From: Solidesulfovibrio aerotolerans
Lineage (GTDB): Bacteria; Desulfobacterota; Desulfovibrionia; Desulfovibrionales; Desulfovibrionaceae
Assembly (NCBI RefSeq): GCF_009856865.1
Contig: NZ_WVUD01000031.1
Span: forward strand, 1 to 44,503
Length of the DNA stretch: 44,503 bases
Reading direction: 5' to 3'
Part shown: piece after piece, positions 23,599 through 29,785 of the stretch
Layout: each line of letters starts with the position of its first letter
Numbering within the stretch: the first letter of the stretch is position 1
Position numbers and translations under genes: made by a program
Notes under the pieces: model-generated
Database searches by the model: none
The model's input: the letters and a program-made list of their open reading frames with translations, nothing else
Told to the model about the DNA's origin: nothing

Positions 23599-25113
23599 AT
23601 GGACGATGCATCCCCATTGGACCGGGACGGCCGTTTTGCCGCCTGCCTGGAGCGACTTGAGGAACTCAAAGCCGTCAAAGCCCGCCGGGAAGTGCTGGAA
23701 GAGCGGGTGTTCCTGGAATTTTTGCGGGCCAATCGCGGCCGCATCAACGAGTTTCCTTTGCTTGAAACCGAGCAGCAAAGTCTCATGGACATGCTGCTGC
23801 GCCGGGCCGAGGGCCTGCACCCCGGCCATAGTTTTATCAAAGACCGGTTTTCGGCCTACCTGCTTGAACTCAACCACTACGGCAAGGCCAAGGCCGTGGG
23901 CGACGCCGCGGCCCAGGAAAAACTGGCCAAGCGCCTGGAACGCCAGGAAACCGTCCTGGCCAAGTGCCTGCAAGGCGCGGTCTATGCCTCGAGCCTGATC
24001 AAGGATAATTTCAGCGACGCCGTCATCCGCCATTTCGGCGAGGATTCCCTGGGCAAGATCGAGGAAATCACCGCCACCATGGTCTTTGACGAGCTGTACT
24101 GGCGCGCCTACATCGACCGCTTCATCAAGGAAGAGGTCCGCGGGGCCTACGATGACATCCTGACCGAGCGGCGCTACCGGCTGTTGCGCGAAGGCCAGCT
24201 CCTTATCGTGGTCTATCCCTTCGACGCCGTCCTTTCCAAGCTCAAAGGCACCACCAAGGCCATCTCCAAGACCCGCGTCCAGACCACCTTCGAGGGCACC
24301 GTCGATTCCGGGGAGGGCCGGGCCACGGCCGAAGCCGCCCTGGCGCTTTGTCTGCGGGCCGACCTGGGGGATGGCGACAAGCGCCTGGAACGCGACGAAC
24401 TGCAATTCGCCGCCCAGGTGGCCGCCATGGACCCCTTGATGGGCGAGTATCAGGCCGCCCTGGCCGATGACAGCCCTGAGGCCGAGGCCCAGCGCGAAGC
24501 CCTGGCCGACGCCGTGGTGGCCCTGTGTTTTGGGGCCATGGTGTCGCTGCGGGTGGTGCGCGAAGATTTTTCCCGGGCCTTGCGGGATTTCTCCACCCGG
24601 GAAATCGCCGTCCTCGTCCATGTGGCCGGCTTTTTTGAGGCCAAGCGGCTGGGCAACGTTCTGGAACAGATCATGGAACTCGACTTGGCCCATCTGCTGC
24701 GCGAAAAAGGCGCGGCCGACGCCGCCCGCATCCAGATCAAGTCCGTGCGTGCCCGCCGGGCCGGCAAGGCCGATGTGGACGCCCTGGCTGAAGCCGGGTT
24801 CAATAAAATCCGGCGCAAACAGTTTTTCGAGGACGACCCGGATCAGCCCGAGATGCTGTTGTGGCGGGTCAAAAACGCCGCCGAATTTGAAGAGAAATTG
24901 CGGCTGCTGCAAATCGAGCCGGAACTGACCCGGGCTCTGGCCGGTTTGTGGGAATACGCCGGCTACAAGGTCGAGCTGTATCTGTGCATCAATCTGGCGG
25001 CGCTCGGAAAGGTGGCCACCAACCTCTCCGCCCGCGTTGCCGAAATTCTCGGCCGTTACGGTATTGCCCCGCCCGGGGCCGCCGATCCGGCAAAGGCGCG
25101 ACGCGACGCATGA
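23599..25113 (+). CDS. Large soluble protein of unknown function between cdsA and dxr
   Basis: I do not recognise this 504-residue, mainly helical protein. It is rich in charged residues, has no signal peptide or membrane helix, and shows no nucleotide-binding or protease motif. Notable segments are FSDAVIRHFGEDSLGKIEEI, a central block (about 180-240) with TERRYRLLREGQLLIVVYPF, and a late REIAVLVHVAGFFEAKRLGN region. AAGGAG precedes the start, 14 bases after cdsA. The stop overlaps the dxr ATG as ATGA. The tight coupling to lipid and isoprenoid genes suggests a chromosomal core gene of this lineage rather than an insertion. Confidence 0.75.
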   Translation: MDDASPLDRDGRFAACLERLEELKAVKARREVLEERVFLEFLRANRGRINEFPLLETEQQSLMDMLLRRAEGLHPGHSFIKDRFSAYLLELNHYGKAKAVGDAAAQEKLAKRLERQETVLAKCLQGAVYASSLIKDNFSDAVIRHFGEDSLGKIEEITATMVFDELYWRAYIDRFIKEEVRGAYDDILTERRYRLLREGQLLIVVYPFDAVLSKLKGTTKAISKTRVQTTFEGTVDSGEGRATAEAALALCLRADLGDGDKRLERDELQFAAQVAAMDPLMGEYQAALADDSPEAEAQREALADAVVALCFGAMVSLRVVREDFSRALRDFSTREIAVLVHVAGFFEAKRLGNVLEQIMELDLAHLLREKGAADAARIQIKSVRARRAGKADVDALAEAGFNKIRRKQFFEDDPDQPEMLLWRVKNAAEFEEKLRLLQIEPELTRALAGLWEYAGYKVELYLCINLAALGKVATNLSARVAEILGRYGIAPPGAADPAKARRDA

Positions 25114-26390
25114 CCCCGATTTCCGCCGATCATCCGGCTACCCCGGCAAACGTCCCCGGCCTGCCTGGGGCCGGTTATATTTCAAGCCTCACCGTGCCTG
25201 ATGGCGGCCCTGCCAGCGGCCGGCCCCGGCGGCTGGCTGTGCTTGGTGCCACCGGTTCCATTGGCGTCAGCACGCTCAACGTTGCGGCCCAACATCCGGA
25301 CCAGTATCAGGTCGTGGCCCTGGCCGGCGCGACCAACGTCACCCGGCTGGCCGGGCAGGCCGCCGCGTTTCGCCCGCCGCTGCTGGCCGTTTTGACCGAA
25401 GAGCACGCCGCCGCCCTGGCCGGACTGCTGCCGGCCGGCTACCACCCGGAGATCCTTGTCGGACCGGCCGGGTATGCCGTCCTGGCGGCCCTGCCCGAGG
25501 TCGATCTGGTCGTTTCGGCCATTGTCGGCGCGGCCGGGCTGGTTCCGACCCTGGCCGCCGTGGCCGCCGGCAAGATCGTGGCCCTGGCCAACAAGGAATC
25601 CCTGGTTCTGGCCGGCGATCTCATCCGGGCGGCGGCCGCGCGGTCCGGGGCCGTCATTTTGCCGGTCGATTCCGAACACAACGCGCTTTTCCAAGCCCTT
25701 GGCGGCGTAGATCTGCCCGATCTGCCCCTGGTCGAGCGGCTGGTGCTGACCGCTTCGGGGGGGCCGTTTCGCGCGGCCTCGCGGCAGTCCCTGGAGTCAG
25801 TGACGCCGCAGATGGCGCTCAATCACCCCAACTGGTCCATGGGGCCTAAAATCAGCGTGGACTCGGCTACGCTTATGAACAAGGGCCTGGAGGTCATCGA
25901 GGCCTGCCGGCTCTACGGCCTGCCCGTTTCCCAGGTGGAGGTGGTGGTCCATCCCCAAAGCATCGTCCACTCCCTGGCCCAGCTCCACGACGGCTCCCTT
26001 TTGGCCCACCTCGGCCCCCCGGACATGCGCGTGGCCATCGCCTACTGTCTGGGCTATCCGCGCCGGCTGTCCCTGGACGTGCCCCGGGTGGATCTGGTCA
26101 AGCTGGCCTCGCTCACCTTCGAAGCGCCCCGTGAAGACGATTTTCCCTGCCTGGGACTGGCCCGGCAGGCCCTTGACTGCGGCCCCAGCCACACCGTGGC
26201 CCTTAACGCCGCCAATGAGGTGGCTGTGGACCTGTTTTTAAAAGGCCGGCTGCGCTTTTTGGGCATTGCCGCCGCCATTGCCGCCACCCTTGACGCCCAT
26301 GCCGGCGAACCCCTGGCCGATGCCGCCGCCGTCATGGACCTCGATGTCCGGGTGCGCCAAGAGGTCGCGGACTGGGTGATGGCGCGGTAA
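25110..26390 (+). CDS. dxr: 1-deoxy-D-xylulose 5-phosphate reductoisomerase
   Basis: Dxr is the NADPH-dependent second enzyme of the MEP isoprenoid pathway and the fosmidomycin target. The 426-residue product has LAVLGATGSIG for NADPH and NKESLVLAG. The metal-binding PVDSEHNALFQAL, the TASGGPF loop, NWSMGPKISVDSATLMNKGL and EVVVHPQSIVHS are also present. About 40 extra N-terminal residues precede the usual start, so translation might begin later. The ATG at 25110 is supported by the ATGA overlap with the upstream gene. Confidence 0.97.
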   Translation: MTPISADHPATPANVPGLPGAGYISSLTVPDGGPASGRPRRLAVLGATGSIGVSTLNVAAQHPDQYQVVALAGATNVTRLAGQAAAFRPPLLAVLTEEHAAALAGLLPAGYHPEILVGPAGYAVLAALPEVDLVVSAIVGAAGLVPTLAAVAAGKIVALANKESLVLAGDLIRAAAARSGAVILPVDSEHNALFQALGGVDLPDLPLVERLVLTASGGPFRAASRQSLESVTPQMALNHPNWSMGPKISVDSATLMNKGLEVIEACRLYGLPVSQVEVVVHPQSIVHSLAQLHDGSLLAHLGPPDMRVAIAYCLGYPRRLSLDVPRVDLVKLASLTFEAPREDDFPCLGLARQALDCGPSHTVALNAANEVAVDLFLKGRLRFLGIAAAIAATLDAHAGEPLADAAAVMDLDVRVRQEVADWVMAR

Positions 26391-26520
26391 GCATGTTGCT
26401 TTTTCGCCGTTGCCGCTTATTTACGCATAACGACAGGCCTTGCCGCGGATTTCCCGACCGCTCGGCCGTCGTCGAAACACCACGCCCGGACCTCCCGTCC
26501 CCCGGCGTTTGCGAGTGCCC

Positions 26521-27600
26521 ATGATCGAAAGTATCCTTGCCGTGGCTCTGGTCCTTGGGGGCCTCATCTTTTTCCACGAACTGGGACATTTTATCGCTGC
26601 CCGGGCCTTTGGCATGGGCGTCACCACGTTCTCTCTGGGATTCGGGCCGAAACTCCTCGGTTTCACGCGCGGCAAGACCCGCTACATCCTCTCGGCCATT
26701 CCCCTGGGCGGCTATGTTCAGCTCGTGGCCCAGGACCCCGACGATGTCGCCCCGGACGATTTCCCGCCCGAAACGCATTTCCGCCTGCGCCCGGCCTGGC
26801 AGCGGATGATCGTCGTGGCCGCCGGCCCGCTTTTTAACTTCTTTCTGGCCTGGCTGCTCTTCTGGGGCCTGCTGGCCGCCGAGGGCCGCTTCGAAATGCT
26901 GCCTGTCGTCGGACAGGTGCAGGCCGACAGCCCGGCCGCCGTGGCCGGTCTGGCTCCCGGCGATACGGTCCTGACCATCGACGGCGCGCCCGTGCCCAAC
27001 TGGGACACGCTGGCCACGGCCATCCGCGGCAGCAACGGCAAGGCCGTCACCCTGACCGTCAACCGCGACGGTAAGGACGCCGTCTTCACGCTCACGCCCA
27101 CGCTGCGCACGGTTAAAAACCTGTTTGGCGAAGAGGAAAGCGTCCCGCTGGTCGGCATCGTGGCCTCGGGCAAAACCCGGACCGTGCCCCTTGGCCCGGG
27201 TTCGGCCGCTTCCGAGGCCGTCAAACAGACCTGGAACGTTGTTGTCGTCACCTACACGGGACTTTTAAAGCTCATCGAGCGCGTGGTGCCCCTGGACAGC
27301 ATCGGCGGTCCCATCATGATCGCCCAGATGGTCAGCAAACAGGCCGGCGAGGGCCTGGGCAACGTTGTCGCCCTGGCCGCGCTCATAAGCGTCAACCTCG
27401 GCGTGCTCAATCTCCTGCCCATCCCGGTCCTCGACGGCGGCCATCTGCTCTTTTACGCCCTGGAAATCATCATGCGAAAGCCCGTCAGCCCGCGCATGCG
27501 CCAGCTGAGCACCAAGATCGGACTGGCCTTTCTCCTGGGGCTTATGATCCTGGCCACGGTCAACGACATCCGGCGGCAATTGAGCGTCTTAAATGGTTGA
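26521..27600 (+). CDS. rseP: RseP-type site-2 intramembrane metalloprotease
   Basis: The 359-residue product is a zinc protease within the membrane. HELGH (His19, Glu20, His23) lies in the first helix, and a C-terminal LNLLPIPVLDGGHLL supplies the third ligand. A single PDZ domain (about 125-195; GLAPGDTVLTIDGAPVPNWD) regulates substrate entry. The family cleaves anti-sigma factors such as RseA and remnant signal peptides. The ATG at 26521 has no good ribosome site, but the helix begins there. Longer starts add a basic Pro/Arg-rich sequence. It overlaps tsaB by 8 bases. Confidence 0.95.
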   Translation: MIESILAVALVLGGLIFFHELGHFIAARAFGMGVTTFSLGFGPKLLGFTRGKTRYILSAIPLGGYVQLVAQDPDDVAPDDFPPETHFRLRPAWQRMIVVAAGPLFNFFLAWLLFWGLLAAEGRFEMLPVVGQVQADSPAAVAGLAPGDTVLTIDGAPVPNWDTLATAIRGSNGKAVTLTVNRDGKDAVFTLTPTLRTVKNLFGEEESVPLVGIVASGKTRTVPLGPGSAASEAVKQTWNVVVVTYTGLLKLIERVVPLDSIGGPIMIAQMVSKQAGEGLGNVVALAALISVNLGVLNLLPIPVLDGGHLLFYALEIIMRKPVSPRMRQLSTKIGLAFLLGLMILATVNDIRRQLSVLNG

Positions 27601-28375
27601 TGCCGGCTCCCCGCCCGGTGCCGGGCCGCTGCTCGTCATTGACGGGGTGACCCCGCAACTCGGCATCACCCTCGGCCGGCCCGGCGAAGCCTTCCTGCAT
27701 CGCCGGGCCGCCACCTCGGGCAGCAGCGCCGAAACGCTGGTGCCGCGCATCGCCGACATGCTGGCCGAAGCCGGCGTCGCCCCCGCCGCACTCGGCGGCA
27801 TCGCCTGCGTGCGCGGTCCCGGCAGCTTCACCGGCATCCGCGTGGCCCTGGCCACCGTCCTTGGCCTGTCGCGCGGCTGCGGCGTGCCCATGGCCGGCCT
27901 GGACTACCTGCCACTTTTGGCCGCAACCGCCGCCCGCCAGGCCACCGGCGTCGTCGTGGCCATCACCTACGCCCGCACCGGGCAGGTCTATCTGCAAACG
28001 TTTCTCGCCGACGGCGAACCGCTGCCCATGGGACCGCCCGTGGCCCTGACCGTGGCCGCTGCCGCCGTGGCCGTGGCTGATGCCGCCGCTGTCGGCCCGC
28101 TGTGGCTGGTGGGCGAAGGAGCCCAGCGCTCCCGGGATGCCTTCCTGGCCGCCGCCTCCCTGGCCACCATCCTCGGTCCCGAAACCCACGATCCCGCTCC
28201 CGAAATCCTCCTGGCTGCCGCCGCCCGCGCCCGCTACAGCCACACACCCATCGAACCGCTGTATCTGCGACCCTGCGACGCCGAAGAAAACCTCGCCGCC
28301 TTCGCCGCCCTGCGCGGCCTAAGTCCCTCGGAAGCCGAAGCCCGCGTCCGCGACGCTACCAGCACGCTGGCGTGA
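27593..28375 (+). CDS. tsaB: TsaB, tRNA threonylcarbamoyladenosine synthesis partner
   Basis: TsaB is the inactive paralogue that partners TsaD, TsaE and TsaC to make t6A37 on ANN-decoding tRNAs. The 260-residue product shows the ASKHA fold: LLVIDGVTPQLGITLG, AETLVPRIADML and the RGPGSFTGIRVALAT signature (about 80-94). Late LYLRP is also typical. The Ala-rich middle is less conserved. The ATG lies inside the end of rseP (ATGGTTGA), showing coupling. The transcript then enters the hairpin-rich region. Confidence 0.92.
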   Translation: MVDAGSPPGAGPLLVIDGVTPQLGITLGRPGEAFLHRRAATSGSSAETLVPRIADMLAEAGVAPAALGGIACVRGPGSFTGIRVALATVLGLSRGCGVPMAGLDYLPLLAATAARQATGVVVAITYARTGQVYLQTFLADGEPLPMGPPVALTVAAAAVAVADAAAVGPLWLVGEGAQRSRDAFLAAASLATILGPETHDPAPEILLAAAARARYSHTPIEPLYLRPCDAEENLAAFAALRGLSPSEAEARVRDATSTLA

Positions 28376-28376
28376 C

Positions 28377-28464
28377 TGGGGCTTTGCCCCAGACCCCGCC
28401 GGGACGCTGTCCCGGACCCTACCAGGGCTTTGCCCTGGACCCACCGGGGGGATGATCCCCCCGG
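28377..28464. repeat. Chain of four short perfect hairpins
   Basis: Four palindromes follow each other: 28377-28391 (TGGGGC/GCCCCA), 28399-28415 (CCGGGAC/GTCCCGG), 28422-28438 (CCAGGGC/GCCCTGG) and 28444-28464 (CCGGGGGGAT/ATCCCCCCGG). Loops are one to three bases as drawn. Each is followed by a GACCC or ACCC spacer. The first and third share a GGCTTTGCC core. It looks like a REP-type intergenic element and is transcribed at the tsaB 3' end. Confidence 0.8.
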
Positions 28465-28534
28465 ACCCCCCGGCGGGGTGGGTGGGAATAGGGGGAGCGG
28501 TTGGGGGATAATTTGTTGCGTGGACGAACGAAAA

Positions 28535-28608
28535 TGGGGGTCGCAATTGGGGGTGCTGGCTCCGCCGGGCTTTGACGGCGGAGCCAGCACCCCCAATTGC
28601 GACCCCCA
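28535..28608 (-). terminator. Long perfect hairpin A, likely terminator for the minus-strand lipoprotein gene
   Basis: Two 33-base arms (28535-28567 and 28576-28608) are perfectly complementary around the loop GGCTTTGA (plus strand), or TCAAAGCC on the minus strand. Read on the minus strand, the stem is followed by TTTTCGTTCG, as in an intrinsic terminator. A stem of this length is unusual for a terminator. Confidence 0.75.
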
Positions 28609-28616
28609 AGTCGCCA

Positions 28617-28670
28617 GCGGCCCTCGGGGTTTTGCGCAATCAAAGCCTTGCGCGAAACCCCGAGGGCCGC
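28617..28670 (+). terminator. Long hairpin B, likely terminator for the tsaB transcript
   Basis: The 23-base arms (28617-28639 and 28648-28670) pair throughout, with one T-G wobble, around loop TCAAAGCC. Downstream is ATTTCGTTGG. The loop and tail match hairpin A as read on the other strand, while the stems are unrelated. Confidence 0.7.
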
Positions 28671-28719
28671 ATTTCGTTGGAGCCAGATCCGTTATGAAGC
28701 CAAGGCGTCGCCCCGTTGG

Positions 28720-29418
28720 TTATGAGCCTGCCGGCGCAGGGGCCGGCGGTGCCGGGTTGGGGCCGGCCGGGGGCGGGGCTTTGTAGCCGTAGTTCCAGTT
28801 GGTGATGGGGCCGCCCATATCCATGGCCAGGGTGGCGGTGACGGCCGAGACGGGTTCGGGGGGCATGCGGTTTTTCTTGGAAAAGATGATGTAATCTTCC
28901 GTGAGTCCGGTTTCCATCATGCCGGAGTGGGCCATGGACCAGAGGCGTTCGCCGCTGCGGGCGTCGATGACGTCGAAAGTGAACGACACGCCGGTATCGC
29001 CCCGGGTGCCGCCGGACATGACGTAGGTGATTTTGCCGACCACCACGACATCGATGCCCATTTTCCGGGCCAGGGCCACGGCTTGGGGGGTGGAGGCGGT
29101 TTTGAGGTTGGCTTCGTAGAGGAGTTTGGGGAAAACGCGGTCCCGGGTCCAGGTCTGCCAGACGACGCGGGTGAGTTGCTCGCCGAGATCCTGGGCGTAG
29201 GGGATGTCCTGGGTGACCTGGAAGGGCACGATGAGCGCCGAAACAGGCACGGGCGGCGCTTTCATGGGTTCGACGTAGACTTCTGGATTGTTGCGTTTGG
29301 TCCAGGCATCGACATAGACGGCGGTCTTGTCGCTCATTTTCGGTTGCACGGCGCAGCCGACGAGAACCAGGGCGGCAACGAGGGCGGCCAGAAGGCCGGA
29401 TTGTGTGGCAAGACGCAT
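28720..29418 (-). CDS. Outer-membrane-type lipoprotein, possibly FlgO/CsgG-like
   Basis: The 232-residue product has a lipoprotein signal: a basic start, a hydrophobic stretch and a VGCAV lipobox with Cys22. The mature part has alternating strands and helices. These include LIVPFQVTQDIPYAQDLGEQ, a central ALARKMGIDVVVVGKITYVM and DVIDARSGERLWSMAHSGMM. This pattern resembles FlgO/CsgG-type lipoproteins, where a repeated signature reports a version of the variable. The tail is Pro/Ala-rich. A flagellar role (FlgO family) would suit the nearby fliS-fliD-flagellin genes but is unproven. It lies 31 bases after the small gene upstream. Confidence 0.72.
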   Translation of the reverse strand: MRLATQSGLLAALVAALVLVGCAVQPKMSDKTAVYVDAWTKRNNPEVYVEPMKAPPVPVSALIVPFQVTQDIPYAQDLGEQLTRVVWQTWTRDRVFPKLLYEANLKTASTPQAVALARKMGIDVVVVGKITYVMSGGTRGDTGVSFTFDVIDARSGERLWSMAHSGMMETGLTEDYIIFSKKNRMPPEPVSAVTATLAMDMGGPITNWNYGYKAPPPAGPNPAPPAPAPAGS

Positions 29419-29449
29419 GGAAACCTCCAGCCTGGGCGCGGGTGGCCCG

Positions 29450-29785
29450 TTATTGGCGCGTGGTGGTGACCACGGGCGCTTCGGAGAGGGTCTTGAGCAG
29501 TTGCCTGCGGGAACTCAGCAGGCTTTCACGCAGTTCCTGGCGTTTTTTTGGCGTGAGCAGGCGGAATTCCGGCCGTGCGGTCATTTCCTGCAGATCAAGC
29601 ATCTCCTGGCGGATATGCCGGATCTTGAGCAGAAAGGCTTGTTCCTCCGGGCGTATCTTGGCGGCCACTGCGGCCATCTCAGCCAATTCGCCGGCCATGG
29701 CCCGGAAGGTCTCGGGATGCAACTCCCGGGCCTTTTGTCGCCAATCCGCCACGGCGCGCCATTTCGCCCGTATCCACATCCACAT
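29450..29785 (-). CDS. Small helical protein of unknown function
   Basis: The 111-residue product is predicted almost wholly helical and strongly charged (for example ELAEMAAVAAKIRPEEQAFL, then EMLDLQEM), probably a coiled coil. The first residues are Trp-rich (MWMWIR). There is no clear signal peptide or family motif. It sits 31 bases ahead of the lipoprotein gene in the same orientation, so the two are probably one transcript. The next 209 bases upstream (29786-29994) hold no gene I can support. Confidence 0.55.
   Translation of the reverse strand: MWMWIRAKWRAVADWRQKARELHPETFRAMAGELAEMAAVAAKIRPEEQAFLLKIRHIRQEMLDLQEMTARPEFRLLTPKKRQELRESLLSSRRQLLKTLSEAPVVTTTRQ

Follow-up and report, generated by a model that had tools for sequence, protein, structure and literature searches.

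Two long hairpins between convergent genes

The window, a stretch of 44,503 nucleotides that forms contig C86 of the 4.6 Mb draft genome G000, carries two long hairpins at 28535-28670, in a gap of 344 bases between two genes that run towards each other. This locus raises the question as to whether such a pair of hairpins could have arisen by chance and, if not, what the pair does between two converging genes and how its stems are kept almost perfectly paired.

Hairpin A (28535-28608, read on the minus strand) consists of 33 perfect pairs. Its arms at 28535-28567 and 28576-28608 measure 33 nt each, are 100% complementary and are spaced by 8 nt, and it is the longest among the 22 inverted repeats listed for the window with a spacing of up to 30. 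The loop at 28568-28575 reads GGCTTTGA on the plus strand and TCAAAGCC on the minus strand. Hairpin B (28617-28670, plus strand) has 23 pairs, one of them a G-U wobble, with a GCG...CGC foot and the loop TCAAAGCC at 28640-28647; it is absent from the inverted-repeat list, and its description is based on the sequence, folds and hairpin scans. When folded, A reaches -79.8 kcal/mol (z -13.3) and B reaches -54.3 kcal/mol (z -8.6), energies which none of 200 shuffles attained in either case, so that both offer the stable, GC-rich hairpin of an intrinsic terminator. An earlier note on this DNA had described two hairpins sharing one loop word, and the inverted-repeat list (in the case of A), the loop positions and the folds confirm that description.

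The two hairpins are joined by a linker at 28609-28616 (plus strand, AGTCGCCA), which is ACTCGCCA in many other copies, and each is followed by an outward tail. That of A lies at 28525-28534 on the minus strand (TTTTCGTTCG after the stem), where A is read with TTTTCGTT behind it, while that of B lies at 28671-28680 on the plus strand (ATTTCGTTGG), where B is read with ATTTCGTT behind it. A, the ACTCGCCA-like linker and B are a single composite element.

Both flanking genes run towards this element. The gene call on the A side (27593-28375, plus strand) encodes a TsaD-family, TsaB-like protein of 260 aa (PF00814, E 2e-13), and the gene on the B side (28720-29418, minus strand) encodes a protein of 232 aa that matches no Pfam family and has a relative in 27 of the 31 genomes searched. 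Within 24948-28375, dxr, an rseP-like M50 protease gene with a PDZ domain and the TsaB-like gene stand in a row towards the element, and fliS and fliD lie beyond it on the opposite strand. The stop codon of the A-side gene is followed at once by a chain of short, GC-rich palindromes (28376-28480, plus strand; GGGGCTTTGCCCC / GGGACGCTGTCCC / AGGGCTTTGCCCT / GGGGGGATGATCCCCCC), which differ in their stems and are joined by GACCC-like linkers. GC palindromes resembling this chain are also present in sister loci, and in many other copies its place holds GATGCCTCCGGCGG[CCGGGGGGC-TCA-GCCCCCCGG] or a variant thereof. An Rfam scan of 27500-29500 returned 39 sub-threshold matches and none at the gathering score; many of these were microRNA models, which suit any long hairpin, and membership of an Rfam family was rejected.

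A dispersed family in related genomes

A search for the pattern CGCCAGCG-N-CAAAGC-N-GCAT across 31 genomes yielded clean copies in G000, G005, G006, G007, G008 and G013, with a match of any sort in 12 of the 31, part of which are plainly chance matches, judged by their sequence. In named genomes, 15 of the 19 loci with the B pattern belong to Solidesulfovibrio magneticus UBA7700 and Desulfovibrio sp. DV, the remaining four being found in unrelated taxa. Viral contigs returned no match to the B pattern, and a viral origin was rejected on that ground. When 59 genomes were scanned with a covariance model of B, seven gave matches: the six carriers, which are among 14 genomes of one genus (by inference, Solidesulfovibrio), and G055 from outside it, where the match is weak (30.8 bits). 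The 121 matches of this model comprise 86 distinct places in the six genomes, 34 second-strand duplicates of the same hairpins, which were left out of the copy count, and the one match outside the genus. With the exception of G006 C183:9463-9505, which fell outside the stretches fetched, all of these places were examined further, giving 85 copies.

By the length thresholds used, 51 of these copies have both long hairpins, 20 only B, 12 only A, and two neither, and long B hairpins number 7 to 18 in each of the six genomes. REP and BIME elements, too, are characterized by numerous extragenic palindromes in one genome. Copies with both hairpins share one order of modules: a purine-rich stretch (often GAGAGAA), A, the ACTCGCCA-like linker, B, and AT followed by T-rich sequence. 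The A hairpins mostly have 28-37 pairs and their usual loop is AAG. Copies with a long A only often possess a short B, for example GCGGCCCTTTGGGCCGC; three such copies in G000 (L155, L157 and L158) carry TCAAAGCC as the loop of A. A model of A matched in 15 of 38 genomes in all, including the eight other genomes of the genus at lower scores and one outside it; matches were counted on both strands, and the low-score matches are candidate A relatives or other long hairpins.

The family is also seen by routes that do not depend on the pattern. Orthologous loci found through their proteins have the same B loop in three cases (L005, L007 and L009) and the loop core in a fourth (L006), and when 844 kb of G000 and G008 were scanned for hairpins of any kind, some with 20 to 25 pairs proved to have TCAAAGCC-type loops. 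Assemblies are broken or gapped at these hairpins (the ends of C70, C77 and C109 in G000, the starts of C12, C52 and C125 in G013), and several loops in G006 hold N runs; copy numbers in these drafts are therefore lower bounds.

Since dozens of copies with the same architecture exist in related genomes, the hairpin pair is far beyond chance. A family whose loop is conserved while its paired stems change freely had been proposed from this one locus; it was indeed found, as borne out by the patterns, the pairing counts and the 85 copies. Bidirectional terminators and BIME-like repeats are known kinds of element; what is unusual here is that dozens of copies keep loop and feet while their stems differ widely in sequence and yet pair almost perfectly. 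No paper on the element was found in the open-licence PubMed Central literature, judging by titles, the starts of abstracts and some passages.

Genomic position and outward tails

Genes were called with a purpose-made codon model, and 10 of the 85 copies, at contig ends, could not be classified by position. Among the other 75, 66 lie between convergent genes and nine between tandem genes, with none between divergent genes and none inside a called gene, which is the position at gene 3' ends that an intrinsic terminator takes. For comparison, 93 of 601 gaps in samples of G000 and G008 are convergent, or 24 of 87 among gaps of at least 300 bp. When sites were merged on any common flanking gene, 26 of 30 were convergent (p 2e-11 against 24/87), and when they were merged only where both flanks match, 38 of 43. 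A hairpin of about 18 or more pairs, of any kind, occurs in few convergent gaps of at least 80 bp (5 of 36 sampled in G000, 5 of 34 in G008), and the element is therefore not the standard terminator of convergent gaps.

On the outward side, at least four T were present in the first 8 nt after 80% of A hairpins (n=59) and 62% of B hairpins (n=69). The inward side has so many T after 0% of A hairpins (n=60) and 3% of B hairpins (n=64), and 5.8% of random 8-mers reach this number. To judge from the letters, this is the layout of a putative two-hairpin bidirectional terminator. The outward T tracts are short and broken up by other bases. Scanned for consensus terminators with a method that counts at most 20 pairs, 28300-28800 gave none. 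Stems of 20 to 37 pairs exceed the length needed for termination.

The place of the copies and their tails suggest that the element probably acts as a terminator. Our main reading, to which we give a probability of about 0.65, is that of a dispersed intrinsic terminator which serves convergent gene pairs in both directions, whose arms would be kept paired by template switching and whose feet and B loop would be kept by selection. A transcript arriving from the A side would pass A and the linker and be released at the T-rich tail just past B, and the opposite transcript would pass B and be released, on the minus strand, at the T-rich tail just past A; RNA polymerase would thus be expected to stop at the element in either direction. 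The suggestion that the hairpins terminate both convergent transcripts agrees with the prevalence of convergent positions (66 of 75) and with the outward T-rich tails.

Conservation of the loop and tail

Of 71 long B hairpins, 61 retain the CAAAGC core, one has it flipped, eight have altered loops and one has an N run, a count biased by the fact that these hairpins were found with a covariance model built on the CAAAGC loop. In an alignment of 20 copies of B the feet (GCG...CGC, then AT) do not vary, the loop, (T/G)CAAAGCC, hardly does, and the stems vary; the invariance is partly by construction, as 18 of the 20 rows were drawn from, or match, a pattern that demanded feet and loop and left the stems free. 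The flipped B pattern gave no match in 17 genomes, including five of the six B carriers, although this pattern misses the flipped copy in G005. Dinucleotide shuffles of the window would lead one to expect the word TCAAAGCC 2.05 times, and it occurs 13 times. In 444 kb of G000 it occurs 55 times, 50 of them in called genes, with an observed-to-expected ratio of 1.06 under a maximal-order Markov model, and a genome-wide signal of the uptake or Chi-like sort was rejected for G000.

The tail fared differently from the loop. Tails are T-rich across copies, yet the word ATTTTCGTT itself is not conserved, and the pattern TCAAAGCC-N(12-42)-TTTCGTT matches only the two window sites in the genome, so that the exact tail word was rejected as a signature of the family. 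Of the search that the earlier note had suggested, for the loop and tail with any complementary stems, the conserved-loop family in relatives was recovered, while the loop with the exact tail was, within this genome, confined to the window, and the ATTTTCGTT-like tail that it had regarded as conserved is a shared T-richness.

It had further been suggested that the two loops could kiss on one transcript. In the window copy the loops of A and B are indeed perfectly complementary; complementarity of at least 6 bases is found in only one of the 44 copies in which both loops are readable. The A loop is inverted in three of 51 unique long A hairpins (the window copy, L174 and L224), and that of the window is inverted relative to the TCAAAGCC loops of A in L155, L157 and L158. 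The complementary loops thus look peculiar to the window copy, with its inverted A loop, and kissing is, therefore, not a feature of the family. As the usual A loop is AAG, a loop-loop interaction on a single transcript is a highly improbable account of the element.

Evolution of the stems

In 20 chosen copies of B, 102 pair changes are two-sided and three one-sided, a value as high as this being reached by none of 500 shuffles. In their alignment, 99.6% of 472 cells pair, leaving two unpaired, and 17 of the 25 pairs vary on both sides; the conserved stem sequence of REP and BIME elements is not seen here. In 21 chosen copies of A the figures are 157 two-sided changes to one one-sided, with 96.2% of 706 cells paired, and of the 27 unpaired cells 20 fall within the eight pairs nearest the loop. 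There are only seven G-U pairs among the 1370 pairs of 57 unique B hairpins, and in the 20-copy alignment the paired length of B changes in both arms.

Comparisons between relatives give a more graded picture. Close relatives differ not infrequently by one-sided changes in A (three, two and three of 32-34 pairs in some examples, such as three of 34 and two of 33), while between more distant relatives two-sided changes in A prevail over one-sided ones by 12 to 0 and by 12 to 1 of 35. At the window site, B compared with that of G008 has 10 two-sided to two one-sided changes among 23 pairs, and at one site G007 and G013 are mixed (11 to 5 of 34). Read on the sense strand and counted as distinct contexts, the imperfect pairs of A are 28 A-C and 14 G-U, and those of B seven G-U and three A-C. 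Such a raw lean towards the outward RNA strand is what selection at the RNA level would predict; in A it is limited to the eight loop-nearest pairs, beyond which there are seven A-C and nine G-U. Because the lean fits RNA selection but, in A, ends at these eight pairs, RNA selection and DNA-level copying may each account for the data.

Passages of a study of template switching (PMC8604942) describe how this process homogenises arms and inverts spacers, nine of 10 genes with inversions having possessed perfect arms beforehand. In the present family, the three A hairpins with an inverted loop all have perfect stems, compared with 14 of the 48 others (Fisher p 0.033, with no correction for relatedness). 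During replication, template switching between the arms would copy one arm onto the other, keeping the stems paired, and would sometimes invert the loop, as may have happened in hairpin A of the window. The stem arms are thus probably homogenised at the DNA level. The templated evolution proposed in the earlier note appears plausible in view of the few one-sided intermediates across copies and of A-loop inversions that occur only in copies with perfect stems.

Inheritance, mobility and associated modules

Both flanking genes are common to copies of different species at 23 sites, which hold 55 elements, and many copies must therefore have been inherited in place. Where both flanks match, 38 of 41 pairwise comparisons have the same orientation and three are reversed, and where one flank matches, 43 of 58 have the same orientation and 15 are reversed; an occasional reversal is what a direction-neutral function would allow. 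Two different sites in G000 (C30 and C78) have identical A and B, from which it follows that copying or conversion does happen. The best reading is that the element is largely vertically inherited, so that the mobile family suspected earlier is weakened by the 23 sites with the same flanking genes, even as the identity of C30 and C78 upholds copying or conversion.

REP and BIME elements have a cognate Y1 (RAYT) transposase nearby, and REP stems are conserved in sequence. Among 13 Y1-transposase loci in 10 of the 14 genomes of the genus (G010 to G013 left out), 12 had no hairpin of at least 15 pairs near them, the thirteenth (L261) lying outside the scan, and G006, which is 89% complete and has 14 long B hairpins, gave no Y1_Tnp match. 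Within these loci and genomes no transposase association was seen, and this candidate was rejected.

Further modules accompany the element. With regard to the terminal inverted repeats of a MITE or transposon, the outer modules GATGCCTCCGGCGG / CCGCCGGAGGCATC stand at both ends of some copies and are absent to the left of the window copy. The outer module GATGCCTCCGGCGGCC flanks many copies, its place in the window copy being taken by the chain of GC-rich palindromes. It is present 75 times in G000 and 24-214 times in each of the 13 other genomes of the genus, against none for the reversed control, and 1 to 19 times in six of 30 genomes outside it. A second group of long hairpins (L032:3664, L044:3040, L047:3561, L050:4634, L058:6606 and L067:16795) includes several flanked by CTCCC and AACAGGAAG-like sequence. 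Long hairpins with TGAA or TTCA loops occur in both orientations in other genomes (L230, L233, L234 and L237 of G004, and L016), and a third module, CCGGGCGAACC - long stem - ATGCGGCGCAGCCGCC-like, lies near several elements (L098:1741-1813, L159 and L179).

Known systems and alternative readings

DNA uptake sequences of Neisseria and Haemophilus are repeat hairpins at gene ends which act as terminators and in which the stem is the conserved word. The present element resembles them as a hairpin repeat family at gene ends, but conserves its loop rather than its stem, and its loop word shows no excess over expectation in the sequence sampled from G000. Modular intergenic elements such as BOX and Correia consist of several modules in many copies; the element shares this, together with inverted outer modules in some copies, but differs in its clade-specific B module. 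Parts of a report on Zymomonas mobilis (PMC7566282), which cites E. coli as well, describe bidirectional intrinsic terminators between convergent genes, with an enrichment of convergent genes at 34% of intrinsic-terminator ends versus 7.5% of other ends. Hairpin, outward T-rich sequence and convergent enrichment are common to those terminators and the element, which, in contrast, consists of two hairpins that keep one order around a conserved linker, has stems of 20 to 37 pairs and a B loop core that most copies retain, and forms a dispersed repeat family.

Of the alternatives to our main reading, the one that we regard as a serious, if less probable, contender accepts the paired stems and attributes them to RNA selection alone, that is, to compensatory evolution of a terminator or 3' UTR structure in the absence of template switching. 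The one-sided A changes, present between close relatives and a small minority between distant ones, and the lean of the imperfect pairs (28 to 14 in A, seven to three in B) argue for it. Set against this are the 259 two-sided and four one-sided changes in the chosen copies, with 29 unpaired cells, the scarcity of G-U pairs, a paired length that alters in both arms, and the company that inverted A loops keep with perfect stems.

A non-autonomous mobile palindrome of the REP/BIME kind, harmless between convergent genes and perhaps binding gyrase or stabilising mRNA 3' ends instead of terminating, is unlikely. The element is dispersed, extragenic, palindromic and modular, as such a palindrome would be, and the identical hairpins at C30 and C78, the abundance of GATGCCTCCGGCGGCC in G000 and several inverted pairs of this module a few hundred bases apart all accord with it; moreover, passages of PMC1525189 place REPs frequently between convergent genes, where they are not specific terminators. 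Variable stems around a conserved loop, the lack of long hairpins around the 12 Y1 loci scanned, the 14 long B hairpins of G006 in spite of its having no Y1_Tnp match, and the 23 sites common to different species speak against it, and it leaves the outward T tracts unexplained. More doubtful still is an RNA that acts through its conserved UCAAAGCC loop, as a protein-binding or base-pairing 3' UTR hairpin for which termination is secondary. While the retention of CAAAGC and the unmatched flipped pattern favour it, within the limits that the model and the pattern set, the flanking genes change from site to site, no Rfam family reached threshold, and 12 of the 85 copies possess no long B alongside their long A.

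Significance

The family offers 85 natural copies, mutually related (53 sites by the strict count), of one structure with a nearly free stem sequence. This makes it a good system in which to ask whether perfect terminator stems are kept by RNA selection or by template-switch copying, and whether there can be a conserved signal in the loop of a terminator. We also put forward, as a speculative idea with little chance of being correct, that these palindromes at convergent junctions may form a self-correcting transcription boundary, their arms rewriting each other by template switching and the UCAAAGCC loop being read by a host factor that enables both directions; if this were true, the sequence would drift widely while the structure hardly ever fails. 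As a bidirectional terminator, the element would mark a clade-specific way to wall off convergent genes.
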